A DNA stretch of 41,768 nucleotides, taken from positions 1 through 41,768 of the forward strand of contig JAOAFX010000008.1 in assembly GCA_026416055.1 (NCBI GenBank). The letters are read 5' to 3'. Position 1 is the first letter of the stretch. Each line of letters begins with the position of its first letter. Source of the DNA: Caldifarciminota bacterium. Lineage in GTDB: Bacteria > Hydrothermota > Tepidihabitantia > SM23-42 > JAOAFX01. The notes below the pieces were generated by a model. The model worked only from the letters and a program-made list of their open reading frames with translations. It was not told the origin of the DNA and made no database searches. Positions 11,957-38,527 of this stretch are shown here, one piece after another. The translations under genes and the position numbers were made by a program.

Positions 11957-11966
11957 AGGGGTAAAT

Positions 11967-12745: not shown

Positions 12746-12755
12746 GGAGGCCTTT

Positions 12756-16206: not shown

Positions 16207-16317
16207 AATTAGGCAATCGATGAAAGGGGGTGCAGGGGGCTTAAAACACAGATCAATCTTAAAGACTGCATTCAAAAAAGTTAAGGTGCATTCCGTAGGG
16301 AGAAAAGGAGGTTGAAA

Positions 16318-20590: not shown

Positions 20591-21450
20591 AAATTTTAAA
20601 AGATGTAGAACGAAATAGATATATTGTAAGAAAGATGATTATACTTTTTTCGGCAGTCACATTTGTGATTTCTGGTTGCACTAAAAAAGAGAAGAATGTT
20701 CTGGTAAGGGTGGATGGTTCTACTTTAACCCTTGAGGAATTTCAAAAATACATCCCTGAATCAGAATATAAGAATCTACCCGAGGAAACTATTACCGAGA
20801 TACTTAATAACTGGGCAAACCAGGAAATGCTCTATCTTGAAGCAAAAAAGAAGGGAATTGACAAAGAAGATTCGGTTGTTATTCTGATTGAACAATATAC
20901 AAAAAATCTCATGGCGATGGCGTTGATTCGTCGTTCTTTTGGCACGACGACGGTGAGTGAAACAGAAATACTCAACTATTTTAATGCACATCAGGAAGAG
21001 TTCACATATGCGGTGAAACTTGCGCAGATTGTTTTACCCAGCTACGAATCGGCAATGCTCACCTACAATGAAATACAATCAGGTGCAGATTTCATGAAGA
21101 TTGCAAAGGAAAGAACACTTGCCCGTATTGAAAACCCTGAGAATCCCCGGATTATAACTGAATATCTGCCGCGCGGTCGGATTGGAGACTTTTCTACCGA
21201 GGAGTTAATATTCAAACTCAAAATGAATGAAGTATCCCAGCCGATTCCCTATATCCAGGGAACATACCTTATTGTTAAACTTATTGATAAGAAAAAAATT
21301 ATGCCAAAGGCAGAGCTGAACGACGAGTTAAGAGGGCAAATCTATAATCATCTAATCTCAAAGAAATATCAAGAATTCCTGCAGAAGTTTATCGATAGCC
21401 TGAAAACAGTTTATAAAGTTACTACTGACTTAACACCTTTAAAGAAATGA
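20587..21450 (+). CDS. PpiC/PrsA-like lipoprotein, second of three chaperone genes
   Basis: 287 residues. The lipobox VISGC lies near residues 27-31. The ATG at 20587 has a good AAAGGAG ribosome site and overlaps the previous stop by four bases; an internal ATG at 20635 would give a shorter, more standard signal peptide. SurA_N-like helices (ILNNWANQEMLYLEAKKKG) are followed by a PPIase-like domain from about residue 140 (VKLAQIVLPSYESAM, GADFMKIAKER, LPRGRIGDFSTEELIFKL). The family holds or folds secreted proteins on the periplasmic side. The domain is degenerate at several parvulin positions, so a pure chaperone role is likely. Confidence 0.75.
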   Translation: MKILKDVERNRYIVRKMIILFSAVTFVISGCTKKEKNVLVRVDGSTLTLEEFQKYIPESEYKNLPEETITEILNNWANQEMLYLEAKKKGIDKEDSVVILIEQYTKNLMAMALIRRSFGTTTVSETEILNYFNAHQEEFTYAVKLAQIVLPSYESAMLTYNEIQSGADFMKIAKERTLARIENPENPRIITEYLPRGRIGDFSTEELIFKLKMNEVSQPIPYIQGTYLIVKLIDKKKIMPKAELNDELRGQIYNHLISKKYQEFLQKFIDSLKTVYKVTTDLTPLKK

Positions 21451-22848: not shown

Positions 22849-22871
22849 GGGTTGAAGTGGGGTAAAATGGG
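22848..22871 (+). promoter_or_regulatory. MraZ box: three TGGG repeats with 10-base period
   Basis: TGGG occurs at 22848-22851, 22858-22861 and 22868-22871, exactly 10 bases apart (TGGGT-TGAAG-TGGGG-TAAAA-TGGGG). This is the TGGGN-N5 repeat arrangement known for the MraZ operator in enterobacteria. It overlaps the end of the -10 box, the expected transcription start and the mraZ start codon, so bound MraZ would block its own promoter. Confidence 0.8.
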
Positions 22872-23346
22872 GAACATAAGGTTCAGAGGATTTTTCAAAC
22901 ATACTATAGATGACAGAAAACGGCTTTCGATACCGAGTCAATTCAGGACAGTCTTGCTTGCTGAGTCAGAAGGTAGGGTGGTCTTGACCCCGGGATATGA
23001 CTATGAAATTGCCGTTTATGCATTGAAGACCTGGCAAGAATTTGAGGATAAAGAACTTCTCAGTTTATCAATGGATAAAATCCAGGCAAGGCGTTATCGC
23101 CGGCATTTTACATTTGGTATTAAAGAAGACCACCTCGATGCCCAGGGTAGAATTCTTATTCCTGATTTTCTCCTTGAATATTCTGGTATAACGAAAGATG
23201 TTATAATCGTTGGCGAGATTAATTATTTCACCTTATGGTCTCCGGAGAACTATCAGAAAATAAAAGAAGAGATTGATAAACATTATCTTGAGGATGCAGA
23301 AACAATTGAGAAAATAAGGAGGCATAATGAAAATCCAGATCGTTGA
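22867..23346 (+). CDS. mraZ: MraZ, transcriptional regulator of the dcw cluster
   Basis: 159 residues from the ATG at 22867. A TTG at 22852 is in frame but lies upstream of the predicted transcription start. Two AbrB-like DNA-binding repeats are visible: HTIDDRKRLSIPSQFR near residues 11-26 and DHLDAQGRILIPDFL near 84-98. MraZ proteins are usually 140-155 residues and bind TGGG repeats at their own promoter as ring-shaped oligomers; such repeats are present here. It opens the cluster and overlaps the STAS gene by 20 bases. Autoregulation is inferred from the box. Confidence 0.93.
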   Translation: MGNIRFRGFFKHTIDDRKRLSIPSQFRTVLLAESEGRVVLTPGYDYEIAVYALKTWQEFEDKELLSLSMDKIQARRYRRHFTFGIKEDHLDAQGRILIPDFLLEYSGITKDVIIVGEINYFTLWSPENYQKIKEEIDKHYLEDAETIEKIRRHNENPDR

Positions 23347-23668
23347 AGGTGTAAAAAATAAAAAAGTCTCGTTTTTTCTTCCAAGTGGTGAAATCAATGA
23401 AAGCGAATTTGAGATCATGGCTGAGAAACTGAAAGGTATGCTGGAGAAAGGGGAATTCAATGTTATCATCGATTTATCAAGGGTTACGCATATCAATTAC
23501 AAAATCGTGGGTGACTTGATAGAATTCCAGAAGAAATTTAAAGAATATGGCGGCGATATAAAACTGGTGAACGTTTCTCCGTATCTATACAACATCCTGA
23601 GACTATATGGTTTCTATCCCTTTGAAATCTATCCGTCACGGCGCGCGGCGTTAAAAAGTTTTCAATAA
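23327..23668 (+). CDS. STAS-domain protein (anti-sigma-factor antagonist-like) inside the dcw cluster
   Basis: 113 residues, a single STAS domain: an N-terminal strand, VIIDLSRVTHINYKIVGDLI around residues 45-64, and a later DIKLVNVSPYLYNILRLYGF helix-loop. In SpoIIAA-like antagonists the loop reads DSSG with a phosphorylatable Ser; here the matching place is NYKI, so serine phosphorylation by an anti-sigma kinase is unlikely. No kinase or sigma gene is nearby. AAGGAGG precedes the ATG, which lies inside mraZ, so translation is probably coupled. Possible roles are a phosphorylation-independent regulatory or scaffold protein in division control; the role is unknown. Confidence 0.75.
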   Translation: MKIQIVEGVKNKKVSFFLPSGEINESEFEIMAEKLKGMLEKGEFNVIIDLSRVTHINYKIVGDLIEFQKKFKEYGGDIKLVNVSPYLYNILRLYGFYPFEIYPSRRAALKSFQ

Positions 23669-23675
23669 TCTGGAT

Positions 23676-24554
23676 GTGGAAAAATTCCACGAGCCTGTTT
23701 TAGTGGAAGAGGTCATTTACTGGATGAACCTGAAGGATGAAGGGATCTATTGTGATTGCACAGTCGGTGGCGGTGGTCATCTGTTTATGATGCTACAAAG
23801 AACGAAAAATGCGCGTTTTATCGGCATCGATTGGGATCCTGAGGCAATTAGTTTTACGCAAAAAAGACTGAGCAATTTTCGGAATCGGGTTATACTTTGC
23901 GAAGGGAATTATGCAGACCTTGATGTGATTATGAAGGAATTGAATATAAAAAGTGTTAATGGATTATTATTTGATCTCGGTGCATCGCTTTATCAACTCA
24001 CTACGCCCCAGCGAGGGTTTAGTTTTAATCACAGCGGAAGGTTGTTGATGCAGATGGCACCGCAAGTTATACCACTTTACAAAAGATTACGCAACGCTGA
24101 TAAAAGAACACTCTACAATGTTTTGAAAAATTATGGAAATGTTCCTAATGCAGAGAGACTTTCTAGGCTCATTTTTGAACACCGGTACAATCTTCACACA
24201 ACTATGGATTTACGGCAGATAGTGGAGGAAAATTTTAAAGGCAGGCTGCTGAAAAAAAATCTCCACAGGGTCTTCCAGGCTTTCCGCATCTGGACGAACG
24301 AAGAATTCAAAAATATAGAACAAGGACTAAAAAAGGCGATAACCCTGATGGAACCTGAAGGAAGGCTTGTTGTGATTTCTTACCATTCAGGCGAAGACAG
24401 GATTGTCAAAAACTTATTTAAAGAGTTTGAGAAAAAAGACCTGCTAAAGCGTTTAAACAAAAAGGTGATAAAACCGAATATCGATGAAGTTCGTCGTAAT
24501 CCCTCAGCAAGGAGTGCCAGGATGCGGGTAGGTGAAAGATGCGTTTCTTTGTAA
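23676..24554 (+). CDS. rsmH: 16S rRNA (cytosine-1402-N4)-methyltransferase RsmH (MraW)
   Basis: 292 residues from a GTG start that fits the family N-terminus (KFHEPVLVEEVIYWM); the nearby ATG at 23674 is in another frame and no clear ribosome site is seen. The SAM-binding loop is DCTVGGGGHL (about residues 27-36), followed by FIGIDWDPEAI, LLFDLGASLYQL and QRGFSF. Other conserved blocks are FRIWTNEEFKNIEQGL and VISYHSGEDRIVK. The enzyme methylates N4 of C1402 in 16S rRNA in the ribosomal P site. Its place second or third in dcw clusters is standard. The usual SVQLDxxxRGF-like loop reads ASLYQLTTPQRGF, a small difference. Confidence 0.93.
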   Translation: MEKFHEPVLVEEVIYWMNLKDEGIYCDCTVGGGGHLFMMLQRTKNARFIGIDWDPEAISFTQKRLSNFRNRVILCEGNYADLDVIMKELNIKSVNGLLFDLGASLYQLTTPQRGFSFNHSGRLLMQMAPQVIPLYKRLRNADKRTLYNVLKNYGNVPNAERLSRLIFEHRYNLHTTMDLRQIVEENFKGRLLKKNLHRVFQAFRIWTNEEFKNIEQGLKKAITLMEPEGRLVVISYHSGEDRIVKNLFKEFEKKDLLKRLNKKVIKPNIDEVRRNPSARSARMRVGERCVSL

Positions 24555-24790
24555 TCATTTTTTTTATCCTGATATATCTTTTCAGTCTGGTGTACATTGA
24601 GAGTGAACTTGTAAAATATAATATCCGGAAAGAAGAATTGAAAAATCAGGTGCAGGAACTGAAAAATGAAAAGGCAAGCTTAATGGCCAGACTCAATTAT
24701 TTCTCAAATCTCGCGTATATTGAGGCTGAAGCAAAGAAACGCGATTTCATATTTCCAGCACGCGAGGATATACTTGGTATTGTGAAATGA
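24539..24790 (+). CDS. ftsL: FtsL/DivIC-like division protein
   Basis: 83 residues with the FtsL layout: one membrane segment at about residues 3-20, then a coiled coil (LKNQVQELKNEKASLMARL) and a short C-terminal part with a family-like ending (IEAEAKKRDFIFPAREDI). FtsL forms the FtsQ-FtsL-FtsB subcomplex that activates septal FtsW-FtsI. Position between rsmH and ftsI is the standard place. It overlaps rsmH by 16 bases and ftsI by four. Sequence conservation in this family is low, so the call rests on size, topology and position. Confidence 0.8.
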   Translation: MRFFVIIFFILIYLFSLVYIESELVKYNIRKEELKNQVQELKNEKASLMARLNYFSNLAYIEAEAKKRDFIFPAREDILGIVK

Positions 24791-26412
24791 AAAAGATAAA
24801 GATTTATAATCTCTGCCTTTTCTTACTTTCATTTGTCTTCTTTACTTATATCTTTTTTATTCAGTGTCTTAAAAACAAACACTACCAGGATATTGCAAGA
24901 CGTGAACATCAGAAAAAAGTAATTCTTTATGGTAGCCGTGGTAATATTTTTGATCGCAATGGTATATCACTCGCAATTTCAGAACCATGTTTTTCAATCT
25001 TCTGCACCCCGGTCTATTCTCCAAATAAAGAACGGCTGGCAAAAAGAATTGCTGAAATATCAGGGCGATCGCTGAGTGAGATTAAAACATTGATAAGCAG
25101 AAACAGATTTTTCTGGATAGAAAGAAAGATTAATTTGAAAAAGCGCGACGAATATTTAAATTTAAACGACCCGAGCATCGGTTATACACACGATTTGAAT
25201 CGCATTTATAATATGCCTGAAGTATTTTCCAGTATCATTGGTAAATGCAGTGTCGATAATCGCGGACTGGAAGGTCTGGAATTATTTTTTGACGAAATTC
25301 TCACCGGAAAAAGCGGTTTTATTGTTTATCAAAAAGAACCAGACGGGGATATCTTTCCTTACTACAGATATCCAGAGAGAGAACCTATTTCCGGACATGA
25401 CTTATATTTGACAGTTGATTTTCAGTTGCAAACAATACTATATTCGAATCTCAAGGAATGTTTAGAAAATGAAGATGCCAGGTGCACTGCAGGGTTAATC
25501 TTGAATCCAAAAACAGGAGAACTCCTTGCCTTGGTGAATATCAGTAAGAGTAATAATGCGCGGAATTTAATAATCTGTGATGAATTTGAACCGGGTTCGA
25601 CATTTAAACTCCTGGGGCTGGTCTATGCACTCCAGAATGGGATAAAGGATAGCGAGAAATTTAATACATATGGTGGCAAAATAAAGATCGACGGACATAC
25701 TATAAACGATAATAAAGACTTCGGTATTCTGACACTTCGCGGGGCAATTGCCCATTCCAGCAATGTTGTTATGGCAGAATTATCAAAACGATTTGATAAA
25801 GAAAATTTTTTGCTTTTAATACGGGATTTCGGTTTTACCCAGCCTACTGGCATAGAACTGCCGGGTGAATCAAAGGGCAGATTGATGAAACAGAAAAATC
25901 TCAATAATATTGAGTTTGCAACATTGCTCTTTGGACAGGGAATCACCTGCAATTTACTACAATTAGCACTCGCATATCAAGCTATCGCAAATGGTGGTAT
26001 TTTGCAAAAGCCATATGTGATTAAGAAAATAATGGATGGAAATCGTATTCTCTATGAGGCAAAACCCCTGAAAATCAGACAGGTCGTTGATGAAGGTACG
26101 GCGCACATGGTGACCAGTATTTTGTGCAGTGTTATTGAAGAAGGTAGTGGAATCGAGGCAAAGATTGACGGCATGAGGATTGCCGGCAAGACTGGCACTG
26201 CCCAGAAGGTTGTTAATGGTAAATATTCAAATTCTGCTGTCATCACCACCTTCATTGGTTATTTCCCAGCAGAGGAACCTGAATATCTTGTTGCCTTACT
26301 CGTTGATGAGCCAAAGAAAGGTATGTGGGCAGGAACGGTTATCGCCCCTGTCTTTAAAAAGATTGCCCAGAGTATCTGCCAGGCAACAAATTTACAATAT
26401 GCGACTAAGTGA
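24787..26412 (+). CDS. ftsI: Septal class B penicillin-binding protein (FtsI/PBP3)
   Basis: 541 residues: an N-terminal membrane segment (about residues 8-27), a PBP dimer domain beginning GSRGNIFDRNG, and a transpeptidase domain. Active-site motifs are S271-T-F-K274, S324-S-N326 and K468-T-G470. No PASTA domains are present. It crosslinks septal peptidoglycan with FtsW. The gene overlaps ftsL by four bases and murE by 14. A sporulation-type or elongation-type PBP is less likely because of its position next to ftsL and murE. Confidence 0.93.
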   Translation: MKKIKIYNLCLFLLSFVFFTYIFFIQCLKNKHYQDIARREHQKKVILYGSRGNIFDRNGISLAISEPCFSIFCTPVYSPNKERLAKRIAEISGRSLSEIKTLISRNRFFWIERKINLKKRDEYLNLNDPSIGYTHDLNRIYNMPEVFSSIIGKCSVDNRGLEGLELFFDEILTGKSGFIVYQKEPDGDIFPYYRYPEREPISGHDLYLTVDFQLQTILYSNLKECLENEDARCTAGLILNPKTGELLALVNISKSNNARNLIICDEFEPGSTFKLLGLVYALQNGIKDSEKFNTYGGKIKIDGHTINDNKDFGILTLRGAIAHSSNVVMAELSKRFDKENFLLLIRDFGFTQPTGIELPGESKGRLMKQKNLNNIEFATLLFGQGITCNLLQLALAYQAIANGGILQKPYVIKKIMDGNRILYEAKPLKIRQVVDEGTAHMVTSILCSVIEEGSGIEAKIDGMRIAGKTGTAQKVVNGKYSNSAVITTFIGYFPAEEPEYLVALLVDEPKKGMWAGTVIAPVFKKIAQSICQATNLQYATK

Positions 26413-27832
26413 ACTTATTGCTGGCCTGAATTGCCGGGTCTATAATTTCAAGGACATACGTATTGAAGAACTGACATGCGATTCGCGCCGCGTAGCGCCT
26501 GGAAGTCTTTTCATTGCAGTTAAAGGAAATAAATATGACGGACATGAGTTTGTGAAAGATGCAGAAAGGTCAGGTGCTGTTGCAATCGCTACACAAAAAA
26601 AAGTCACGAGTTCACTTCCACAGATTGTTTTCAAAGATACCCGGGAAATGATGGGCAAGATTGCAAGAAATTTTTACGGCGATTTTTCCGAACTAATGAT
26701 TGTAGGTGTCACCGGTACAAATGGAAAGACAACCACAACTTTCCTCATCCACTCTATACTGAACAGGGCTGGACTTGCACCAGGTCTGATTGGAACGATT
26801 TATTATATGGGAAATGAAAAGGTGAAGGCCGAAAGAACGACTCCGGAAAGCTTAGAGTTATTTAAACTTATCGATAGGTTCCGTAAAGGCGGGATGAAAA
26901 GTATTGTGATGGAGGTATCATCCCATGCCCTGGCATTAAAAAGGGTAGAGGAATTGAGATTCCGGGTGGCAATCTTTACCAATCTTTCGCAAGATCATCT
27001 CGATTTCCATAAAACGATGGCTGAATATAAAAAAGCAAAACTCCACCTTTTTGACCTTTTAAGTAAAGAAGGCATTGCAGTCTACAATCTGGATGACCCG
27101 GTGGCAGAAGAGATTCAGAGGCTTTATCTCCCTTGTTCTTTAAATTACGGATTCAGTAATGGTGCGATGATTAAAGGTGAAATAGTTGAGGATAATCTTT
27201 CAGGCCTGCGGATGAATATCCTCCATAAGGACAAAAAGTTAGATATAAACTCAAAACTCGTTGGCACATTCAATGGTTATAATATTCTTGCAAGTTTTGC
27301 AGCCGGTGTTGCATTGAATATTGATTATGGAATTATTAAAGAAGGTATAGAATCTCTTAAAAATGTTCCGGGTCGGATGGAGCATGTGGCGGAAAACATT
27401 TTTGTCGACTTTGCCCACACACCGGGTGCCATAGGCAATCTATTAAACTCTTTACGAAAATATACCACAGGCCGACTGATAATAATCTTTGGCTGCGGAG
27501 GGGACAGGGATAAGGAGAAGCGTCCACAAATGGGGGCGATTGCGAGTGAGAATGCCGATCTGGTAATTCTGACTTCAGATAACCCCAGAACAGAAGAACC
27601 AGAAGAAATTATAAAAGATATTGTAAGTGGAATCAAAAAGAACAATTTTATTATCATTCCGGACAGGAGAGAAGCGATTGAGTATGGTATAAAGATAAAA
27701 AAAGCCGAGGATATCCTCGTTATTGCCGGAAAAGGACACGAAGAGTATCAAATCGTCAAAGACAAGATAATCCCGTTTGATGATACCCAAGTGGTAAGAG
27801 AAACTTTAGGAGTCCATGACCATGTACATTGA
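26399..27832 (+). CDS. murE: UDP-MurNAc-L-Ala-D-Glu:meso-DAP ligase MurE
   Basis: 477 residues from the ATG at 26399; the open frame runs back to 26180 inside ftsI, but that part is not MurE-like. ATP-binding loop GTNGKTTT (residues 106-113), SSHAL and the D394-N-P-R397 motif are visible. DNPR marks meso-diaminopimelate as the amino acid added, so the cell wall should be of DAP type. Cytoplasmic third-residue ligase of the lipid II pathway. It overlaps ftsI by 14 bases and has no clear ribosome site, which suggests translational coupling. Confidence 0.95.
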   Translation: MRLSELIAGLNCRVYNFKDIRIEELTCDSRRVAPGSLFIAVKGNKYDGHEFVKDAERSGAVAIATQKKVTSSLPQIVFKDTREMMGKIARNFYGDFSELMIVGVTGTNGKTTTTFLIHSILNRAGLAPGLIGTIYYMGNEKVKAERTTPESLELFKLIDRFRKGGMKSIVMEVSSHALALKRVEELRFRVAIFTNLSQDHLDFHKTMAEYKKAKLHLFDLLSKEGIAVYNLDDPVAEEIQRLYLPCSLNYGFSNGAMIKGEIVEDNLSGLRMNILHKDKKLDINSKLVGTFNGYNILASFAAGVALNIDYGIIKEGIESLKNVPGRMEHVAENIFVDFAHTPGAIGNLLNSLRKYTTGRLIIIFGCGGDRDKEKRPQMGAIASENADLVILTSDNPRTEEPEEIIKDIVSGIKKNNFIIIPDRREAIEYGIKIKKAEDILVIAGKGHEEYQIVKDKIIPFDDTQVVRETLGVHDHVH

Positions 27833-29099
27833 AATGATGCTAAAAAAGGCGGTTAAGGTTATGAGGGGTAAAGGTGGAGATATCAGAAACGAGCTGGTCA
27901 GGGGTGTCAGCATAGATTCACGAACAGTAATGCCAGGTGAATTATTCTTCGCTCTGAAAGGAGAAAATACTGATGGTCATCAGTATACCAATGAGGCAAT
28001 GAAAAAAGGTGCAGTGGCAGTGGTTGTACAAAGAAGGACGAATGTGCCTAATGAAATTTTGGTGAATGATACCCTTTTTGCTCTGGGTGAACTTGCGCTT
28101 TACTATCGCAGCCATTTCTCCATACCAATTGTGGCAATCACTGGAACAAATGGTAAGACAACAGTAAAGAATCTGGTTGCCAGTATACTTTCCACAAAAT
28201 TCAAAGTACTCTGGACGAAAAAAAGTTATAACTCCCTCATTGGATTGCCACTGATGATTTTTGAAATTTCAGGTCAGGAAGATTATATCGTCCTGGAAAT
28301 GGGTACAAGCAATCCAGGAGAGATAAAAAGATTGTGTAATATTAGCAAACCATCCATTGGTATAATCACCAATGTTGGCCCGGGTCATATCAAAGGACTT
28401 GGTTCTATTGATGGTGTGAGAAAGGAAAAGCTTTCATTGATCGAATCTTTGCCTGAGCACGGCATCGGATTTGTAGGACCCGGGGTGGGGAAAGTAGAAA
28501 GGAAAAATGTGGTATATTTTTCATATGATGAGTTATCAGGTATCAATATTGACGAATCTGGCTCGCGATTTATCTACAAAAATACTTTATTTAATACCCC
28601 TCTTCTGGGGATAAATAATGTATATAACTGCCTTACGGCACTTACTGTGACAGAGAGGCTGGGAATTGAAACAGCAGCACAGAAAGAGGCGCTGGGAAAA
28701 ATCAAACCTGAAAAAGGAAGAATGGAACCGATAAGAGCCGGTGATCTTTTGATAATAGATGATACTTATAATGCCAATCCAGCGTCCATGAAGTCGGCAA
28801 TAGATTTTATAAAAGAATTGAAGCGGAGAAAGATTCTAATATTAGGTGATATGCTGGAATTGGGCGATGAATCTGAGAAATATCACCGTGAGATTGGCAG
28901 GTATGCAAAGGAATGTAGCGACCTGCTTCTGACTACAGGGGTTGAGGCTGAGAACTACAGCGGGATACACTTTGATGATTCAGATAAACTGGTAAGTTAC
29001 TTATTACGAAATCTGAGAGGGGACGAGGTTATACTGGTAAAAGCATCACGGGCAATGAAATTTGAAAGGATTGTGAAAAAGATTTTAAGGAGGATATAA
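27816..29099 (+). CDS. murF: UDP-MurNAc-tripeptide:D-Ala-D-Ala ligase MurF
   Basis: 427 residues. The ATP loop GTNGKTTVKN begins at residue 110; LEMGTSNPGEIKRL, NVGPGHIKGLGS and DDTYNANPASMKSAI are MurF-specific blocks. It adds D-Ala-D-Ala to the UDP-MurNAc tripeptide. The start could be ATG 27816 or, better spaced from AGGAG (27808-27812), ATG 27822; both lie inside the end of murE. Next comes mraY after one base. Confidence 0.95.
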   Translation: MTMYIEMMLKKAVKVMRGKGGDIRNELVRGVSIDSRTVMPGELFFALKGENTDGHQYTNEAMKKGAVAVVVQRRTNVPNEILVNDTLFALGELALYYRSHFSIPIVAITGTNGKTTVKNLVASILSTKFKVLWTKKSYNSLIGLPLMIFEISGQEDYIVLEMGTSNPGEIKRLCNISKPSIGIITNVGPGHIKGLGSIDGVRKEKLSLIESLPEHGIGFVGPGVGKVERKNVVYFSYDELSGINIDESGSRFIYKNTLFNTPLLGINNVYNCLTALTVTERLGIETAAQKEALGKIKPEKGRMEPIRAGDLLIIDDTYNANPASMKSAIDFIKELKRRKILILGDMLELGDESEKYHREIGRYAKECSDLLLTTGVEAENYSGIHFDDSDKLVSYLLRNLRGDEVILVKASRAMKFERIVKKILRRI

Positions 29100-29100
29100 G

Positions 29101-30186
29101 ATGCTTTACCTGCTTTTATATCCATTAAAAGAAATTTTCGGACCATTTCGATTATTTGGCTATATTACCTTTCGTGCTGCATACGCATTAATTCTGGCAA
29201 TACTGATTGTTCTAATTATAGGGAATTATTTTACGAATCTCATGAAAAGGAAATCTATCACACAAAGAATCAGAGAAGAAGTCCCCCGGCATCATAAAGC
29301 TAAAGAAGGTACACCATCCATGGGTGGGTTGATGATTCTCATATCAATATTGATTTCTGTTCTGCTTTTTGCTGATTTAACCAATCCTAATATTTTAATA
29401 TTGATGATTGCAACAATATACTTTGGTACCCTGGGATTTATTGATGATTATATAAAGATTTTCAAAAATAAACCGAGGGGTTTGTCCATAAAGACAAAAC
29501 TCCTGTTTCAGATTATATTCGGGGTCGCCCTTGGCATTTATTTGTATTTTCATGGTCCACAGGGTTATAACACAAAGACGAATCTATTATTTTTGAAAAA
29601 TTATGTGGTGAATTTCGGCATATTTTATCCGTTGTTTGTTGCACTTGTAGCTGTGGGTACCTCTAATGGAGTTAATCTTACTGATGGTCTTGATGGACTG
29701 GCCGCTGGTCTGCTCGGCATAAGTGGTCTGGCATATGCAGCACTTGCTTATGCCAGCGGTCACAGTGGCATAAGTCATTATCTAAATATAATCTTCGTAA
29801 AAAATGGTGGTGAAATAACGGTCTTCTGCACTGCTATGGTTGGTGCACTACTGGGTTTCTTGTGGTTTAATGCCTATCCAGCCCAGGTCTTTATGGGTGA
29901 CACCGGCTCATTGAGTCTGGGTGCAATACTGGGGACGATTGCGATTCTTATTAAACACGAATTTTTATTGGTATTTGTGGGCGGGGTCTTTGTGATTGAG
30001 GTAATTTCAGTAATTCTTCAGATTATATATTTCCGGCACACAAAGGGTAAAAGATTATTTTTGATGGCTCCTCTTCATCATCATTACGAGTTAAAAGGAC
30101 TTGCTGAACCGAAGATTGTGGTGCGCTTCTGGATTGTGGGAATTATCTTTTTAATGGTTGCCCTTTCCACACTGAAGATAAGATGA
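29101..30186 (+). CDS. mraY: Phospho-N-acetylmuramoyl-pentapeptide transferase MraY
   Basis: 361 residues, about ten membrane segments. Conserved cytoplasmic motifs are present: GTPSMGGLMIL, the DD pair in GFIDDYIKIF, NLTDGLDGLAAG, NAYPAQVFMGDTGSLSLG and PLHHHYE. MraY transfers phospho-MurNAc-pentapeptide to undecaprenyl phosphate, giving lipid I at the inner membrane face. It lies one base after murF with AAGGAGG upstream and overlaps murD by four bases. Confidence 0.97.
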   Translation: MLYLLLYPLKEIFGPFRLFGYITFRAAYALILAILIVLIIGNYFTNLMKRKSITQRIREEVPRHHKAKEGTPSMGGLMILISILISVLLFADLTNPNILILMIATIYFGTLGFIDDYIKIFKNKPRGLSIKTKLLFQIIFGVALGIYLYFHGPQGYNTKTNLLFLKNYVVNFGIFYPLFVALVAVGTSNGVNLTDGLDGLAAGLLGISGLAYAALAYASGHSGISHYLNIIFVKNGGEITVFCTAMVGALLGFLWFNAYPAQVFMGDTGSLSLGAILGTIAILIKHEFLLVFVGGVFVIEVISVILQIIYFRHTKGKRLFLMAPLHHHYELKGLAEPKIVVRFWIVGIIFLMVALSTLKIR

Positions 30187-31484
30187 AGATACTTCTTTTG
30201 GGTTTAGGCCGGGCGAATTTGCATGTTGCACGCTATCTCCTGGATAAAGGTATTGAGATATTTCTTTATGAAGAAAACTTAAATAATCTAAGTGAAGAAG
30301 CTCAAATGCTCATCAAGAGCGGGAGAATAAAAGAATATCAAAAGATCAAATATGATCTTGTGGTCTCTTCACCGGGTTTCCCGGATTCAAAGCCCATACT
30401 CCAGGAACTCAGAAAAAAAGGATTGGAAATTATTGATGAGACAGAATTTACATATAATAATTTGCCCAACCCCAGGGTGATTGCCATCACCGGAACAAAT
30501 GGTAAGAGTACAACTGCAGCACTGATAAGCAATATTCTCAGTGCTGCCGGGATAAGAAATTTCTTGGGCGGTAATATCGCACCGGGCCGTCCTTTTTCCT
30601 CAGCACTTTTTGAAAAACCTTTCGATTATTATGTGATTGAACTGTCATCATTCCAGTTGATGCGGATAAAAAATTTCCATCCAGAGATCGCAATTCTTAC
30701 CAATATATCTGTTGATCATCTCAACTGGCATAAAGATTTGAATGAATATATTGGTGCTAAAAAGAGAATTTTTATGAATCAAAATTCCTGTGATTATGCA
30801 GTGCTCAATTATAATGACGAAAGAGTTAGGTCCGTGGAGAAGGAAATAAAGGCCCGTGTTGTGTTCTTTGGAACCGGGTGTCACGATGGTGCCTGGCTTA
30901 ATGGTATTTTACATTTTAAGGATGAAGAAATAATAAACGACGACGAGATACCACTTCTCGGTCAGCATAACCGTTTTAATGTCCTGGCGGCGATAGCGAC
31001 CGCAAAAATATTAAGGATACCGAATGAATTCATAAGAAAAGGAATAACAGGGTTTGCACCCTTACCCCATCGCCTTGAAGATTTAGGTATTATTGGTGGT
31101 ATTCGTTACATTAACAATTCGATGAGTACTAATGAGGCATCAGCAATCGCCTCTTTTATGGCTGTACCTGGAAATAAGGTCGTTATCGTAGGGGGCAGGG
31201 AAAAAGGAGATCGTGCGGAGAATTATTTGAAGATTCTAACCCAGTGGGCAAAGGCTGTTGTGATACTTGGAGAGAATGCAGAAGATATTGCAGGATATTT
31301 TGACCGGAATCAATTTCAAAAATACAAAATTGCAAAAAATATGGATGAAGCAATTTATTTCGCCCGCAAGTTTGCCCAGCCTGGAGATGTGATTATGCTC
31401 AATCCTGGTTTCGCTTCTTTCGGACATTTCCGGGATTTTCAGGAAAGGGGGGAGGCATTTAAAAATGGTGTCTTCAAGGATTGA
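30183..31484 (+). CDS. murD: UDP-MurNAc-L-Ala:D-Glu ligase MurD
   Basis: 433 residues. N-terminal nucleotide-binding fold (LLGLGRANLHVARYL), ATP loop GTNGKSTT (residues 104-111), GGNIAPG, LSSFQL, NISVDHLNWH and the later NNSMSTNEASAIAS block are MurD features. It adds D-glutamate to UDP-MurNAc-L-Ala in the cytoplasm. The usual DSKATN reads NSMSTN here. It overlaps mraY by four bases and ftsW by 20. Confidence 0.93.
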   Translation: MKILLLGLGRANLHVARYLLDKGIEIFLYEENLNNLSEEAQMLIKSGRIKEYQKIKYDLVVSSPGFPDSKPILQELRKKGLEIIDETEFTYNNLPNPRVIAITGTNGKSTTAALISNILSAAGIRNFLGGNIAPGRPFSSALFEKPFDYYVIELSSFQLMRIKNFHPEIAILTNISVDHLNWHKDLNEYIGAKKRIFMNQNSCDYAVLNYNDERVRSVEKEIKARVVFFGTGCHDGAWLNGILHFKDEEIINDDEIPLLGQHNRFNVLAAIATAKILRIPNEFIRKGITGFAPLPHRLEDLGIIGGIRYINNSMSTNEASAIASFMAVPGNKVVIVGGREKGDRAENYLKILTQWAKAVVILGENAEDIAGYFDRNQFQKYKIAKNMDEAIYFARKFAQPGDVIMLNPGFASFGHFRDFQERGEAFKNGVFKD

Positions 31485-32526
31485 CCATATTCTATTTATC
31501 ACGATTATAATCTTACTCGTACTCGGTTCTATTTTCGTATTCTCATCATCATATTATCAGGCACTCCAGCAGGGTGAGAACACACTTTATTATCTGATCG
31601 GTCATATTAAAAGGCTTCTGGTCGCGGTGGTTTTTTTCTTCGCCGGATTGCTCATACCCGTTGAAAAATACCGGAAGCTGATATTACCTGGTTTCCTTTT
31701 TATTCTACTCGTTTTAATTTTCACCCTGGTAATTGGTAAAATGCAATACGGAGCAAAGCGCAGTATTTTGATTTCTTCATTCGGGATTCAGATTTCGGAA
31801 TTTGTTAGAATCTGGATTGTTTTATTCCTTGCCAATTTTTTTACCAATCATCCCGACACCGCCCGTACCCGGAGCGGAATTTTGGTGGCAACTGCACTTC
31901 CACTTTCATTAATAATCCTGGTGGCGGTCCAGCCTTCAATCTCAGTTGCAATTATTACATTTTTGACTATGATAAGCATGATAATTTACAGTGATGCAAA
32001 ACTTAAAGTTCTAACCCCGGTCATTTTAATCGGCGTTGCTCTTTTTGCAATAGCAGTTCTAACTTTCCCACATGTCCGTCACCGTATTTTCAGCTTCATC
32101 TCAAATCCAGCCTATCAGGTGCAGCAATCATTGATTGCAATTGGAAGCGGGGGAATTTTAGGGCGAGGCATTGGTGCGGGTATACAGAAATTTCTTTTTC
32201 TACCACGCATCCATAACGATTTCATATTTGCCCATATTGCTGAAGAGACTGGATTTATCGGCACTTTAATTATCTTCATCCTTTACTGGGAGATATTTTT
32301 GCGTGGTTTGTCGATTGCCCAGATGGTATATGATGAATTTGCAAGACTTGTGGTTATGGGTCTAAATACTACAATTTTTGTTATTTTTCTTGTCCATGTT
32401 GGTGTGAGTATTGGACTCTTACCGCCAACCGGAATTCCTCTGCCTTTTGTCTCCTACGGTGGCTGGTCACTCTGTGCCAATCTATTTTCTATGGGATTGA
32501 TTTTACAGATTTCAAAGATGGTGTAG
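31465..32526 (+). CDS. ftsW: FtsW, SEDS peptidoglycan glycosyltransferase of the divisome
   Basis: 353 residues, about ten membrane segments. The SEDS family signatures are present: ISEFVRIWIVLFLA, DFIFAHIAEETGFIG and PTGIPLPFVSYGG. FtsW polymerises lipid II during septation together with FtsI. The start lies 20 bases inside murD after a GGGGGAGG ribosome site. RodA is the alternative SEDS protein, but the location between murD and murG is that of FtsW. Confidence 0.93.
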   Translation: MVSSRIDHILFITIIILLVLGSIFVFSSSYYQALQQGENTLYYLIGHIKRLLVAVVFFFAGLLIPVEKYRKLILPGFLFILLVLIFTLVIGKMQYGAKRSILISSFGIQISEFVRIWIVLFLANFFTNHPDTARTRSGILVATALPLSLIILVAVQPSISVAIITFLTMISMIIYSDAKLKVLTPVILIGVALFAIAVLTFPHVRHRIFSFISNPAYQVQQSLIAIGSGGILGRGIGAGIQKFLFLPRIHNDFIFAHIAEETGFIGTLIIFILYWEIFLRGLSIAQMVYDEFARLVVMGLNTTIFVIFLVHVGVSIGLLPPTGIPLPFVSYGGWSLCANLFSMGLILQISKMV

Positions 32527-32529
32527 AAG

Positions 32530-33564
32530 ATGGGCAGGGTTTTAATAATTATTTCGGGAATCGGCACCGGAGGTCATTACTTTCCAGCAGCGGTGGTGGC
32601 AAAGGAATTTGTGAAAAATGGTATGGAGACAATCTTTTTAGTTAGAAAAAATTATCCTGAAGAGACAATTGCCCGGAAATACGGTCTGAAGACTTTTTAC
32701 ATTTCACCCCGCCCTTATTACGGTAAATCAGTTATAAATAAACTGATTGCGCTTGAAAAGGTTCTGGAATCGGTGTTGAGGTTGAATAAATTAATGGCTG
32801 AAAAATGCGCCGGTATTTCATTTGGTGGGTTCGGTTCACTACCTCTGGTTTTGTCATGCATGATAAATAATCACCCTTTCTTTCTATTTGAACCGAATTG
32901 TATACCAGGCCGAACTACAAAGATGTTTGCACGATTTGCGCGGAAGGTGTTTCTTGGCTTACCCTCTTCTGTTGATTTAAAGGCTGAAGCAGTGGTAAGT
33001 GGTATTCCGGTTCGTGAAGAATTTAAGCAGGTCTCCAGAAAGATGGCTCCGGCAGAAAAAAAGACTATTCTTTTCATGGGGGGAAGCCAGGGTGCAAAGA
33101 GATTGAATGAGCTCGCGATCGGATTACAGAAAATTCTACCTGTGGAATATAGACTCGTCATAATTAGCGGGAAAAGAGATTTTGACTGGGTGAATAGTTT
33201 AAAGGATTACAGAACCGATGTCATACCTTTTACAACCGAGCCTTGGAATGTAATTGCTGATGCCGATGTCGTTGTTTCACGGGCAGGTGCATTGAGCGGT
33301 TATGAACTGCTGATAATGAAGAAATCCGTGATATTTGTTCCTTTCCCCTATGCGATTGACGACCATCAGTTTTACAATGCCCAATACTACGCCCGGATGC
33401 CCAATGTGAGAGTCATAAGGGAAAGGGATCTGAACGAAGAGATATTGTTAAAGATGGTATTAGAACTTATGAATACAAAGGAACTTGAATCGGAAAGGGA
33501 GTTAGAGATTAAATACGATGCAGAAAAAGTTATCGTGGAACATGTGCTTAAGGAGATGAGATGA
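32530..33564 (+). CDS. murG: MurG, lipid II-forming GlcNAc transferase
   Basis: 344 residues, GT-B fold. GIGTGGHYFPA at the N-terminus is the MurG lipid-binding loop; FGGFGSLPLVL, FEPNCIPGRTTK and FMGGSQGAKRLNEL follow. The C-terminal UDP-GlcNAc site shows SRAGALSGYELL and DDHQFYNAQYY. It adds GlcNAc to lipid I at the membrane face. Starts three bases after ftsW and overlaps murC by four bases (ATGA). Confidence 0.94.
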   Translation: MGRVLIIISGIGTGGHYFPAAVVAKEFVKNGMETIFLVRKNYPEETIARKYGLKTFYISPRPYYGKSVINKLIALEKVLESVLRLNKLMAEKCAGISFGGFGSLPLVLSCMINNHPFFLFEPNCIPGRTTKMFARFARKVFLGLPSSVDLKAEAVVSGIPVREEFKQVSRKMAPAEKKTILFMGGSQGAKRLNELAIGLQKILPVEYRLVIISGKRDFDWVNSLKDYRTDVIPFTTEPWNVIADADVVVSRAGALSGYELLIMKKSVIFVPFPYAIDDHQFYNAQYYARMPNVRVIRERDLNEEILLKMVLELMNTKELESERELEIKYDAEKVIVEHVLKEMR

Positions 33565-34934
33565 GAAAACTTCTGGGCAGAATGAGCCATATTCATTTTG
33601 TCGGAATCGGTGGGATTGGTATGAGCGGGCTGGCGCTGATTTACCATAATCTTGGTTTCAAAATTTCTGGTTCTGATATCAAACATTCTGCGGTGATTGA
33701 GGCGTTGAAAAAAGCGGGTATGAAAGTGAAGCTATCGCACGCGAAGGAAAATGTGAGAAATGCTGATGTGGTGGTTTATTCCACGGCAATAAAAGATGAC
33801 AATTGCGAAATCATTGAGGCAAAAAGGCTTGGCATTCCAGTGATACACCGGAGCGAACTTCTTGCTGAGCTTACCAGGATAAAAAATTCAATATGCGTTT
33901 CCGGCACACATGGTAAAACCACGACGTCGTCACTCATTGGCGAAGTCCTTGAAAAAGGTGGGTTGAAGCCCACAACAATCATCGGTGGAATTGTGAAGGA
34001 TAAAAGCCAGGCATGGTATGGCCTGGGTGATTACCTTGTCTGTGAAGCTGATGAATCGGATAAATCATTCCTCAGGCTTTTGCCTGCTTATGCAATCATA
34101 ACAAATATTGAGCCTGAGCATCTCGATTTTTATAAAGATTTGAGAGAGATAGAAGATAATTTCACATATTTTGCCAATCATGTTCCATTCTGGGGTTGCG
34201 TTTTTTTAGGTGCAGATTCACCGAGCAATTTAAATATAAAAGATAGAATAAAAAGGAGGGTTATTTTATACGGGTTGAATGAAATCGCTCACTTAAGAGC
34301 TGAAAAAATTGAGAGGGTTGATTTCGGTTCCCGCTTTAAAGTCTACTGGCACAATAAGGATCTTGGAGTGTTTAAAATCAACCTTCCTGGCCGGCATAAT
34401 GTAATAAACAGCCTTGCTGCCATAGGTGTGGGATTGGAACTTGAGGTAAAATTGAAAAATATTAAAGATGCGCTGGAGAACTTTAAAGGTGTCCAGCGCC
34501 GGATTGAATACCGTGGTACGGTGAATGAGATCATGATATTTGAAGATTATGGCCATCATCCGACAGAAATAAGTGTCACCCTGCAAACTTTGCGGGAATA
34601 TTTCCCACAGCGGCGCATAATTTCCATTTTTCAACCCCATCGTTATACAAGAACATACTACCTTTTTAACGATTTCGGCCGGGCATTTATATTTGCTAAT
34701 GTTGTGATTTTGACTGAAATCTATTCTGCCCATGAGATACCCATCCCGGGCATAAATGGGGAAGCCCTTGCCCGGAGGATTAGCAAAGAACAGGAAAATG
34801 TGTTTTTCGCACCGACCTTTGATGAGGTGATAAAGAGGGTGAAAAAAATTGTGGCACCTGGAGATCTCATCGTTGTCCAGGGTGCCGGTGATATTAATCG
34901 TATCATAACTCCATTGTTTGAGGTTTTAAAATGA
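33561..34934 (+). CDS. murC: UDP-MurNAc:L-Ala ligase MurC
   Basis: 457 residues. IHFVGIGGIGMSGLA is the N-terminal MurC motif, GTHGKTTT (residues 115-122) the ATP loop, followed by CEADESDKSFL, EDYGHHPTEI and FQPHRYTRT, all typical. It adds the first residue, L-alanine, to UDP-MurNAc. It overlaps murG and murB by four bases each, so the three are probably translated together. Confidence 0.96.
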   Translation: MRKLLGRMSHIHFVGIGGIGMSGLALIYHNLGFKISGSDIKHSAVIEALKKAGMKVKLSHAKENVRNADVVVYSTAIKDDNCEIIEAKRLGIPVIHRSELLAELTRIKNSICVSGTHGKTTTSSLIGEVLEKGGLKPTTIIGGIVKDKSQAWYGLGDYLVCEADESDKSFLRLLPAYAIITNIEPEHLDFYKDLREIEDNFTYFANHVPFWGCVFLGADSPSNLNIKDRIKRRVILYGLNEIAHLRAEKIERVDFGSRFKVYWHNKDLGVFKINLPGRHNVINSLAAIGVGLELEVKLKNIKDALENFKGVQRRIEYRGTVNEIMIFEDYGHHPTEISVTLQTLREYFPQRRIISIFQPHRYTRTYYLFNDFGRAFIFANVVILTEIYSAHEIPIPGINGEALARRISKEQENVFFAPTFDEVIKRVKKIVAPGDLIVVQGAGDINRIITPLFEVLK

Positions 34935-35815
34935 GGACGCTATTTAATGGCATAAAAGGTTTAAAGGTTTTTAAAAATGAACCACTCAGTGCTTATACTT
35001 CTCTCCGTATCGGGGGTAGGGCACGATATTTGATAAAGGTCTATGATGAACAAGCATTGTGGGAAGCGATGGAAATCATTAAAAGAAGACATTTAAATTA
35101 TCTCGTACTTGGCAAAGGAACGAACATTCTATTTCCGGATAGAGGCTTTGATGGTGTTGTGATAAAACTACATGGTACATTCCAGAGGATTGAACAGAAG
35201 TACAATATTTTTTCTTGCGGTGGAGGGGTTTTGATAAAAGACTTCGTAAAGCAGGCACAGAATTCCGGATATGGTGGAGTCGAATTTCTTGTAGGAATTC
35301 CTGGCACGATCGGCGGTGCAGTGAAAGGCAATGCCGGAGCATTTGGCAAAGCGATATCAGATGTATTGACCAGTGTTACAATCATTGGGCCAGATCTCAG
35401 AATTAGAAAAATAAAACGAAATGAGATTAATTTTGATTATCGAAAATCAGATATTTCTGATGAAGAGATTATTATCAATGCAGAGTTTAAATTGAAAAAG
35501 ATTAAAAAACAAATTATAGAAAATAAAATAAATGAGTATCTGAAAATCCGCAGAGAGAAACAGCCCAGGGGTTTTTCTGCGGGTTCGTTTTTTAAAAATC
35601 CAAGACCGCTCAGTGCAGGAAGATTGATCGATGAATGTGGTTTGAAGGGTTTACGAGTGGGTGACGCGATGGTGAGTAAAAAGCATGCCAATTTTATTAT
35701 CAATCTTGGCAGGGCCCGCGCTCGAGATGTTTTGAGGCTGGTGAAGATTATCCAGAATAAAGTGAAGGCATTGAAGGGTATCGAACTTGAACCGGAAGTG
35801 AGGATTGTAAAATGA
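34931..35815 (+). CDS. murB: UDP-N-acetylenolpyruvoylglucosamine reductase MurB
   Basis: 294 residues. YTSLRIGGRARYL, GKGTNILFPDRGFDG and GIPGTIGGAVKGNAGAFG are the FAD-binding blocks; AGSFFKNP supplies the proton-donating Ser, and E near the C-terminus (LEPEVRIV) is the second catalytic residue. The compact length and C-terminal LIDECGLKGLRVGDAMVS fit type II MurB. It reduces UDP-GlcNAc-enolpyruvate to UDP-MurNAc with NADPH. It overlaps the following short ORF by four bases. Confidence 0.95.
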   Translation: MRTLFNGIKGLKVFKNEPLSAYTSLRIGGRARYLIKVYDEQALWEAMEIIKRRHLNYLVLGKGTNILFPDRGFDGVVIKLHGTFQRIEQKYNIFSCGGGVLIKDFVKQAQNSGYGGVEFLVGIPGTIGGAVKGNAGAFGKAISDVLTSVTIIGPDLRIRKIKRNEINFDYRKSDISDEEIIINAEFKLKKIKKQIIENKINEYLKIRREKQPRGFSAGSFFKNPRPLSAGRLIDECGLKGLRVGDAMVSKKHANFIINLGRARARDVLRLVKIIQNKVKALKGIELEPEVRIVK

Positions 35816-36126
35816 TTAAGGTCATCGCGATGATTATAATTTTTATTTTAATCATTATCATAATGATACAAATACCTTTCTTTACTGATAAGAAGTTAAA
35901 GGGTGAATATATTACATTGAAAGAAGTGATACCCGATGCCAAAATTATTTCGGAAACCGAAGGTATAATTGAATATAAAGGTAAAAAATTCATTCTGGGT
36001 TTGAATGATTTGAGAAGGAAGAGAGACCTCATAAGGAGCCTGTGCCTCGACACCCTTTCCGGTTATAAAGAAATTGACCTGCGTTTTCGCAGGCAGATAA
36101 TAGTGAGGAAGAATGATTTGGAATGA
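35812..36126 (+). CDS. Minimal FtsQ/DivIB candidate (single membrane segment, very short)
   Basis: 104 residues, in the exact place of ftsQ between murB and ftsA. A membrane segment spans about residues 4-24, followed by only about 80 external residues. FtsQ proteins usually have 220-290 with a POTRA domain after the membrane helix; there is no room for one here. The C-terminal stretch YKEIDLRFRRQIIVRKND resembles the last beta strands of FtsQ (vDLRfxnqivvr), the part that binds FtsB. The reading frame is intact, overlaps murB by four bases and shows no sign of decay. I infer a reduced FtsQ; an unrelated small membrane protein is the alternative. Confidence 0.5.
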   Translation: MIKVIAMIIIFILIIIIMIQIPFFTDKKLKGEYITLKEVIPDAKIISETEGIIEYKGKKFILGLNDLRRKRDLIRSLCLDTLSGYKEIDLRFRRQIIVRKNDLE

Positions 36127-36169
36127 ATCAATTGTTTATTTTATTGATTGAACACCCCAGGAGGTGTAC

Positions 36170-37402
36170 ATGGCAAGAAAAGAAAGAATCGTTGGTGTTG
36201 ACCTCGGAACAACAAAAGTTGCAGCAATCATTGCAGAGGTAGAAGATAATGAATTGAAAATTGTAGGGGTTGGTTCTACCCCTTCTTATGGTTTGAAGAG
36301 AGGGGTTATTGTTAACCTTGAGAAAGCAATAGCATCCATTAAAAAGGCTGTGGATGAAGCATCGAAGATGGCAGGTGTAAAAGTCGATTCATGTTATGCC
36401 GGAATTTCAGGTTCCCATATTGAGAGCATCAATGCGCATGCAATGATTGCTACTTCAAGAACCGGGGGAATAATTACCAAGAGGGATATTGAAAGAGTCA
36501 TTGAACAGGCGAAGGCGATAATTCTGCCTATGGACCGGGAGATTATTCATGCCATTCCGATTGAATACATCGTGGATAATGAGAAGGGGATCAAAGATCC
36601 AATCGGCATGAGTGGTGTTAAGCTTGAAGCAGAGGTTCACATCGTCACCGCGGCTATCGCCTCAGCACAGAATATCTACACCGCACTCAATCGTGCCGGG
36701 CTGAAGGTAAAAGACCTCGTTCTTCAACCACTTGCTTCATCTTATGCAGTGCTACAGCCCGATGAACTTGACCTCGGGGTATGCCTGCTTGACATCGGCG
36801 GTGGAACGACGGATCTGGCAATCTTTTATGATGGTGCAATACGCCATTCTCAGGTTATTCCTCTGGGTGGTGAGTACATAACTAACGATATTGCAATCGG
36901 CATAAGGACGCCACACAACCAGGCTGAGGCGATCAAAAAGAAATATGCAACATTGAGTTTACGTGAAGAAGAGAGAAGAGAAGAAATCAAAGTTCCGGGT
37001 ATCGGGGGTAGAGAAGATAGAACAATAACTAAAGAAACATTGTATAATATCGTAACACCCAGGGTTGAAGAGATATTAATGATTGCGAATCGGGAGATAA
37101 AGAAAAGTGGTTTTGCCGACGTTTTAGGTGCTGGAGTTGTGATTACCGGTGGCACAGCAAGACTGGCAAATCTTGATAAATTTGCCGAAGAAATTTTTAA
37201 TCTACCTGTGAAGATTGGAATACCTAAAAGGATTGGCGGCCTCACCGATATTATTCTCGATCCCATCTATGCCACCGGTGTGGGCCTGATACTCTATGGA
37301 TTTGAGAAGAAGAATGTATCACTCATCCAGCGTGAAAAAGGGATGAGTATTATAGAGGCGATTAAGAAGAGATTTGAGGATCTTTTTAACAAATATTTTT
37401 GA
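36170..37402 (+). CDS. ftsA: Cell division protein FtsA
   Basis: 410 residues from the ATG at 36170, five bases after AGGAGG; a GTG at 36164 overlaps the ribosome site. Actin-like ATPase motifs: VDLGTTKVAAII (phosphate 1), LDIGGGTTDLAIF (phosphate 2) and VVITGGTARLANLDKF (adenosine). The SHS2/1C region lies at about residues 80-165. The C-terminus ends in an amphipathic helix (SIIEAIKKRFEDLFNKYF) that binds the membrane. FtsA tethers FtsZ to the membrane by binding its C-terminal peptide. Confidence 0.96.
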   Translation: MARKERIVGVDLGTTKVAAIIAEVEDNELKIVGVGSTPSYGLKRGVIVNLEKAIASIKKAVDEASKMAGVKVDSCYAGISGSHIESINAHAMIATSRTGGIITKRDIERVIEQAKAIILPMDREIIHAIPIEYIVDNEKGIKDPIGMSGVKLEAEVHIVTAAIASAQNIYTALNRAGLKVKDLVLQPLASSYAVLQPDELDLGVCLLDIGGGTTDLAIFYDGAIRHSQVIPLGGEYITNDIAIGIRTPHNQAEAIKKKYATLSLREEERREEIKVPGIGGREDRTITKETLYNIVTPRVEEILMIANREIKKSGFADVLGAGVVITGGTARLANLDKFAEEIFNLPVKIGIPKRIGGLTDIILDPIYATGVGLILYGFEKKNVSLIQREKGMSIIEAIKKRFEDLFNKYF

Positions 37403-37414
37403 AAGGAGGTATTT

Positions 37415-38527
37415 ATGTTAACTCTGGCTCAAGAGCCGCAATTCAAGGCAAGGATAAAACTTATTGGAGTGGGTGGTGCAGGTGGTAATACTGTAAGTTT
37501 TGCTTCAGAGTTTGGAATTGAGGGTGTAGAACTAATCGCAGTAAACACCGATGCACAACACCTCCAGTATCAAGTACGGGCACCGGAGAAAATTCAGATT
37601 GGAGTAAATATAACAAGAGGACTGGGCGCAGGCGGTGATCCGGAAATCGGCCGGAAGGCAGCAGAAGAATCCCGCGAAGAAATTAAAAAGCTTGTCCAGG
37701 ACGCAGACATGGTTTTTATTGCCTGTGGCCAGGGGGGTGGGACAGGAACCGGAGCATCGCCGGTGATTGCTAAAGAGGCAAAAGAAGCAGGTGCATTGGT
37801 CGTGGCGGTTGTAACCAAACCATGGCTCCATGAAGGTCCAAAAAAGATGAAGATTGCAGAAAGAGGAATTGAAGAATTGAGTGAAATCGTGGACACCTTG
37901 ATCTGTATTCCCAACGAGAAAATAAACATGGTATTTCCTCAAGACCAGAATGCGGTCGACTCGCTTCGGGCAGGGAACATCGTCCTTTTCAACGCCATAA
38001 AAGGGATTGCTGAACTTGTGACAAAACCCGGTCTAATCAATCTCGATTTTGCCGATGTCCGTGCAGTGATGACAGAAAGGGGCAAGGCAATACTTGGACT
38101 CGGTATTAGTGAAGGTGAAAATAGGGCAGTTCAGGCTGCACAGGCAGCAATTTCATCTCCGCTCCTGGATAACATTTCGCTCAGTAGCGCCAAGGGTATT
38201 CTGATAAACATCAGCGGTTCGGATGTAAAAATGAAAGAGGTGTCAGATGCGTCCAGCCTGATAATGGGTGCAATCAATAACCATGACGTGAATGCCAAGA
38301 TAGGATTGGTTGTGGATGAAAGTTTGAATAATAAAATTCAAATTCTTGTGGTTGCAACTGGTATCACGGATGAACCTGTTGAATCCAGAATTGAGTTTGG
38401 ATTGCGTACGGAGAATATTGAATTACCTACTTTCAAACGCCGAGAGCCGAAAAAAGAAACCAAAGAAAAGGCATACAATCCAAACGACCTTGAAGTTCCA
38501 ACATTTTTGAGAAGGCAGGTAGATTAA
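37415..38527 (+). CDS. ftsZ: Cell division protein FtsZ with doubled C-terminal peptide
   Basis: 370 residues, tubulin-like GTPase. The GTP signature GQGGGTGTGASP lies at about residues 105-116 and the T7 loop LINLDFADVRAVM is intact. The C-terminus holds the conserved peptide LEVPTFLRRQ (residues 359-368) that binds FtsA and other partners. An upstream near-copy, IELPTFKRRE (335-344), lies 24 residues before it, with only a short lysine-rich linker between. FtsZ forms the division ring. It follows ftsA by 12 bases with AAGGAGG upstream. Confidence 0.97.
   Translation: MLTLAQEPQFKARIKLIGVGGAGGNTVSFASEFGIEGVELIAVNTDAQHLQYQVRAPEKIQIGVNITRGLGAGGDPEIGRKAAEESREEIKKLVQDADMVFIACGQGGGTGTGASPVIAKEAKEAGALVVAVVTKPWLHEGPKKMKIAERGIEELSEIVDTLICIPNEKINMVFPQDQNAVDSLRAGNIVLFNAIKGIAELVTKPGLINLDFADVRAVMTERGKAILGLGISEGENRAVQAAQAAISSPLLDNISLSSAKGILINISGSDVKMKEVSDASSLIMGAINNHDVNAKIGLVVDESLNNKIQILVVATGITDEPVESRIEFGLRTENIELPTFKRREPKKETKEKAYNPNDLEVPTFLRRQVD

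Follow-up and report, generated by a model that had tools for sequence, protein, structure and literature searches.

The open reading frame between murB and ftsA in the window (the whole stretch of DNA analysed, 41,768 nucleotides) most likely encodes a homologous remnant of FtsQ in the ftsQ position, and not a canonical member of the family, since the POTRA domain, a defining feature, was checked for and is absent. We consider it probable (about 80%) that the gene is a descendant of ftsQ whose product, an inner-membrane anchor followed by the final strands of the beta domain with their helix, clamps FtsBL. This reading draws on homology to FtsQ, the ftsQ position of the gene, its predicted fold, searches that found no POTRA or other FtsQ, conservation in the order, and the retention of the FtsB strand. 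FtsQ is viewed as an essential hub at the centre of the divisome, its POTRA domain being taken for the recruitment module.

The window is contig 152 of a MAG (2.1 Mb, 163 contigs, ~85% complete) belonging to the uncultured WOR-3 phylum, its closest named relatives being candidate division WOR-3 bacteria. The dcw cluster occupies ~22852-38527 and, with names assigned by sequence and order, consists of mraZ, a STAS-domain-like gene, rsmH, an ftsL-like gene, ftsI, murE, murF and mraY, followed by murD, ftsW, murG, murC, murB, the reduced ftsQ, ftsA and ftsZ. As is usual for FtsQ/DivIB, the gene lies directly before ftsA (murB-X-ftsA-ftsZ); its ATG start overlaps the murB stop (ATGA), and ftsA begins at 36170. 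The first-pass annotation had placed a 104-residue gene in the ftsQ position at 35812-36126, and the reading frame is found exactly there. The ftsL-like protein matches DivIC (E 1.4e-5) and FtsL TIGR02209 (E 3.7e-5), both under the curated cut-offs. The features are as follows:

24539..24790, + strand: ftsL-like gene, 83 aa, between rsmH/mraW and ftsI
24787..26412, + strand: ftsI (PBP3), by sequence and position
31465..32526, + strand: ftsW, by sequence and position
34931..35815, + strand: murB, upstream neighbour, its stop overlapping the reduced ftsQ start
35812..36126, + strand: reduced ftsQ-like gene, 104 aa, in a murB-X-ftsA position kept in the order
35815..35898, + strand: membrane-anchor helix, residues 2-29 (AlphaFold2; hydrophobic sequence)
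35899..35940, + strand: conserved linker, residues 30-43, at the site of the POTRA and first beta-domain strands of full-length FtsQ
35941..36111, + strand: beta fragment, residues 44-100, the end of the FtsQ beta domain (AlphaFold2, Foldseek, hhalign)
36064..36111, + strand: putative FtsB-binding strands, KEIDLRFRRQIIVRK region (alignment; interface residues from PMC6134095)
36170..37402, + strand: ftsA, downstream neighbour
37415..38527, + strand: ftsZ, by sequence

Searched alone, the window protein has no sequence match in Pfam, NCBIfam or the PDB, and nothing in it or anywhere in its genome reaches the Pfam cut-off for FtsQ_DivIB_C, a model which also misses many full-length WOR-3 FtsQ. 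The end of the protein had been likened, by eye, to the last FtsQ beta strands, and a sensitive profile search had been proposed. With hhalign, the window family matched 19 full-length WOR-3 FtsQ with an E-value of 4e-8 (probability 95), aligning to their end, and FtsQ of other phyla with an E-value of 4e-6 (probability 87), each value being that of one comparison. These matches uphold the likeness, as does the motif DLRF..QIIVR, which is the shared end of full-length FtsQ from other WOR-3 families and neighbouring phyla. Further, an HMM built from FtsQ of other phyla only gave the window ORF 15-16 bits, while none of 4,800 shuffled family members exceeded 10.5 bits and no other ORF in the window 3.3. 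The protein is therefore homologous to FtsQ over the C-terminal part of the beta domain.

AlphaFold2, run with 24 sequences, predicted one membrane helix and a small beta fragment (pLDDT 84). The single N-terminal helix coincides with a hydrophobic stretch conserved in the family alignment, and the cytoplasmic tail ahead of it is almost nil (1-2 residues). In the beta fragment (pLDDT ~86-94 per block), strands at residues 44-47, 52-55 and 58-61 are followed by a helix at 67-76 and strands at 85-89 and 97-100. When this model was compared with the PDB using Foldseek, ranks 1-9 were all FtsQ, with mostly unrelated proteins below; the best match was 8p1u (probability 0.97, E 0.048), and the FtsQ chains among the top ranks were 8p1u, 8bh1, 6h9o, 8hhf, 2vh1, 5z2w and 2vh2. 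The best E-values are modest (0.02-0.05), as the fragment is short (~57 residues), and the weight rests on the unanimity of the FtsQ matches. A model of the reduced FtsQ of families f17-f19 and f24 likewise retrieved FtsQ only at ranks 1-10. The predicted fold is thus the one seen at the end of FtsQ's beta domain, a likeness whose absence would have told against the first-pass annotation. No POTRA_1 match was found in the protein, nor is there room for a POTRA, since only residues 30-43 lie between helix and beta fragment. The earlier description of a membrane helix without a POTRA is borne out, and the reduction goes further: relative to full-length FtsQ, the first half of the beta domain and nearly all the cytoplasmic tail are missing as well.

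One might suppose that FtsQ was displaced here by an unrelated small membrane protein which came to resemble it by convergence, given the lack of Pfam, NCBIfam and PDB matches for the single sequence and the low HMM score. Such a replacement is most improbable in view of the two profile comparisons, the fold search led by FtsQ and the identical position, to which are added graded intermediates such as family f28 and the co-conservation with FtsB, both described below.

A protein search of 41 genomes detected the reduced ftsQ in 26 of the order's 27, at 34-61% identity to the window protein and with orthologue E-values from 1e-15 to 1e-33. The orthologues lie between murB and ftsA in every locus read, and the comparison of lengths in related genomes that had been suggested earlier gave 98-116 aa across the order where read, counted from the conserved start. 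In the one genome lacking it (G018), a run of N (masked) falls inside a truncated ftsA frame at the locus. Since all relatives of the order with a readable locus have an orthologue with the same neighbours and size, the ORF is more than a chance one. A lone truncated or misassembled gene is ruled out by this order-wide conservation, and the gene is not broken. The frame is open throughout, mean column identity is 50%, length is uniform over two families and more than 10 genera, and the invariant columns of the order alignment include P41, G51, G57, G63, L67, L77, L79 and D89. These same properties make it unlikely that we are looking at a decaying FtsQ heading for loss, with little or no function left, a view that could appeal to the several related families without FtsQ at this position and to the grouping of reduced and absent states on the MurB/MurC tree. 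Against decay also speak the FtsB strand retained alongside and, in the sister family, a presumed rare start codon kept against synonymous drift.

Searches with PF03799, PF08478 and a WOR-3-specific FtsQ profile turned up neither a full-length FtsQ nor a second copy, in this genome or elsewhere in the order; the last of these profiles detects one copy per genome, including in several single-contig relatives. A full-length ftsQ elsewhere had been named as the finding that would overturn the first reading, and the profile searches revealed none in the ~85% complete genome. The sole POTRA match in that genome is BamA, and no FtsQ-type POTRA scored above cut-off in any of the 27 genomes of the order, several of which are single contigs more than 90% complete. 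Across the class, the Pfam FtsQ models gave no match, because such models miss divergent FtsQ, and the weak POTRA matches sit in long frames of 570-770 aa; calls of 'FtsQ absent' that rest on Pfam are unreliable in such phyla. The incompleteness of the genome and the failure of Pfam POTRA_1 to detect divergent WOR-3 FtsQ leave some room for an FtsQ that is split and not reduced, its POTRA being supplied by a separate gene, but the single copy per genome and the POTRA searches across the order make this highly improbable. We also considered whether POTRA loss is tied to loss of the FtsK membrane domain and rejected it, as FtsK_4TM is present in most f1 and f2 genomes and in full-length families alike (families of the phylum are designated f, loci L).

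In E. coli, FtsB residues 64-87 suffice for FtsQ binding, and Y248 of FtsQ is the centre of the interface; an F is accepted at this position, a W or K is not, and the Y248F protein complements fully (PMC6134095). Residues D89-L90-R91-F92 of the window protein align with D245-L246-R247-Y248 of E. coli FtsQ. Residue 92 is F or Y in 24 of 24 alignment rows, D89 is invariant and R91 is replaced by K or S in a few, so that by alignment the FtsB-contact residues (Y248 or F, R247, D245) are in place. The same genome encodes an FtsB of 92 aa (L114:1974-2252, - strand) ending in ARNELGMIKKNEKIFLIIK, which has the FtsQ-binding C-terminal strand and keeps, when aligned by eye with the E. coli protein, counterparts of R72, E82 and an aromatic. 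Its coil is not obviously shortened.

We then compared FtsB and FtsQ across the phylum, using 58 FtsB-match reads, a few of which are not FtsB. The FtsB strand (a GMIKxGEKxYxI end) is present in all 16 families where full or reduced FtsQ and FtsB were read, in a shortened version in f11, and is lost in eight of the nine families without detectable FtsQ (f4, f6, f7, f9, f27, f32, f33 and f34). The FtsB-like proteins of these eight (L121-L127, L235-L249) end directly after the helix or enter unrelated tails. With families as units the association gives a Fisher p of 8e-6, the families not being independent. A phylogenetic pair test yielded 3-4 independent contrasts, almost all of which either agree with expectation or are neutral, a number with which significance is unreachable. 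Since there are only these 3-4 contrasts, the sequence comparison supports, without proving, that the reduced FtsQ is kept for FtsB. The only family that keeps the FtsB strand without a detected FtsQ is f37 (L109, L110, L134, L251, L254), where the murB-ftsA gap of 320-510 nt holds no forward frame of 40 aa and the searches detected no FtsQ in other parts of the genomes; f37 has either a hidden FtsQ or a recent loss.

The stretch directly past the membrane helix carries an EVIP.A.IIS motif (residues 38-47; window 35923-35952), which is among the most conserved parts of the protein and has no clear counterpart in full-length FtsQ. This linker may be a new interaction site, and one could imagine a remnant that has given up FtsB for another partner, for instance a WOR-3-specific periplasmic factor. 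We regard this as very unlikely, because the best-matched segment is the FtsB-binding one and the FtsB strand is lost where FtsQ is absent.

Across the phylum, we located ftsA in 130 of 147 genomes and read the gene before it in ~70. The FtsQ_DivIB_C model picked out full-length FtsQ in part of the WOR-3 families and gave short matches in others. Full-length FtsQ (~202-258 aa) occurs in f11-f16, f29, f30 and f36, with a match of similar size in f31; as a set these proteins match FtsQ of other phyla with an E-value of 1e-31, and that of L073 passes POTRA_1. Family f28 (L096) has a protein of 152 aa with a membrane helix and the whole beta domain and no POTRA, the domain limits being set by alignment. 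Reduced FtsQ of 98-160 aa is found in f1, f2, f3, f17, f18, f19, f21 and f24. Those of f3, f17, f18, f19, f21 and f24 share the locus, the membrane helix and the beta-domain end with the window protein, but their identity to it is low and their linkers are mostly longer; f21 (155-160 aa), like f28, keeps more than the window protein does. The murB and ftsA genes are directly or almost directly adjacent in f4-f9, f22 and f25-f27, and f32-f34 yielded no FtsQ.

A MurB+MurC tree (two genes, 98 rows) gathers the reduced and absent states in one large group (f1-f9 with f17-f27) and leaves the full-length families outside it; f28 sits among the latter, and f32-f34 stand apart. The tree is rough, since it places two non-WOR-3 rows within that large group. 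It suggests early loss of the POTRA and proximal strands and then repeated total loss of FtsQ, with separate events in f28 and in f32-f34. The ancestor of the large clade would probably have lost the POTRA and proximal beta strands first, and several descendants would later have lost the whole of FtsQ, the FtsB strand along with it.

The remnant resembles FtsQ/DivIB (PF03799 plus PF08478; E. coli P06136) in its place before ftsA, its single membrane helix, the presence of an FtsB partner, and the last beta-domain strands and helix with their D-L-R-F/Y motif. It differs in lacking the POTRA, the proximal half of the beta domain and nearly all of the cytoplasmic tail, in its 104 residues against ~210-280, and in lying below Pfam detection. 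In cryo-EM of FtsWIQBL only the FtsQ beta domain is well resolved, the POTRA and membrane helix being flexible or unseen, and the POTRA is thought to bind FtsK (PMC7614612, PMC10764723). The ordered, FtsB-bound part of FtsQ in the P. aeruginosa complex (8p1u, 8bh1), our best fold matches, roughly corresponds to the window remnant; there the remainder exists but is flexible, whereas the window gene does not encode it.

By analogy, the fragment would lie in the periplasm and hold the FtsB/FtsL coiled coil; the periplasmic placement is tentative, as charges flank the membrane helix on both sides in the family alignment and the N-tail has only 1-2 residues. The C-terminal strand of FtsB (NEKIFLIIK) may add to the FtsQ sheet at residues 85-100 by beta-augmentation, with F92 at the centre of the contact, after the model of the E. 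coli FtsQ-FtsB complex. In that case the reduced FtsQ would brace FtsBL and FtsWI but would not recruit FtsK, a role proposed for the POTRA in E. coli. Published FtsWIQBL structures rise ~70 A above the membrane, so the geometry would be tight, the FtsB coil being not obviously shortened and only ~14 residues joining helix to fragment.

We lean towards seeing the full-length, POTRA-less, fragment-only and FtsQ-less WOR-3 as a graded natural deletion series, in which the FtsB strand goes when FtsQ goes; the irreducible function of FtsQ would be that of a short membrane-tethered FtsB clamp, and POTRA recruitment, and finally FtsQ itself, would be dispensable for FtsZ-based division. Which part of FtsQ is essential is something we infer, since function and essentiality are putative and several relatives have no FtsQ at all. 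A whole order with the tether and FtsB-binding fragment alone would separate clamp function from recruitment, and the window protein offers a ready-made minimal construct for testing in E. coli. The linked loss of FtsB strand and FtsQ in other lineages provides evolutionary evidence, independent of mutagenesis, that FtsQ and FtsB have this one contact in common. The chlamydial FtsQ homologue is another divergent FtsQ from a lineage with an unusual divisome (PMC4643143); we found no paper on a POTRA-less FtsQ or on FtsQ in WOR-3, the search having covered literature outside subscription, so that priority is unproven.

In sister family f2 (L004-L021, L023-L025; 21 loci read) the conserved start of the reduced ftsQ is not an ATG, GTG or TTG, and in several genomes no standard start codon precedes the membrane helix at all. 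A conserved ATT is found ~7 nt past a GAGGAGG-type ribosome site inside murB (e.g. L010:1492-1494). The overlapping MurB Leu codon is TTA in 21 of 21 loci, while TTA makes up 0-50%, mostly less than 25%, of the Leu codons of f2 murB genes. The codon pattern suggests that the f2 gene starts at a conserved AUU, a rare start codon.

Finally, some other features of the window may be mentioned. The STAS/anti-sigma-antagonist-like gene between mraZ and rsmH in the dcw cluster (23327-23668, + strand) encodes 113 aa. Directly upstream of the cluster are three successive SurA/PpiC-type peptidyl-prolyl isomerase-like genes (19295-22676, + strand), and before them, named by sequence only, a subtilisin-like protease of 961 aa whose C-terminal tail resembles a type IX secretion sorting domain (16312-19197, + strand). 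A large operon at 1382-15473 (+ strand), its genes likewise named from sequence alone, resembles a membrane-bound [NiFe]-hydrogenase / Mrp antiporter and also includes a formate-dehydrogenase-like molybdopterin subunit and genes of ferredoxin type.
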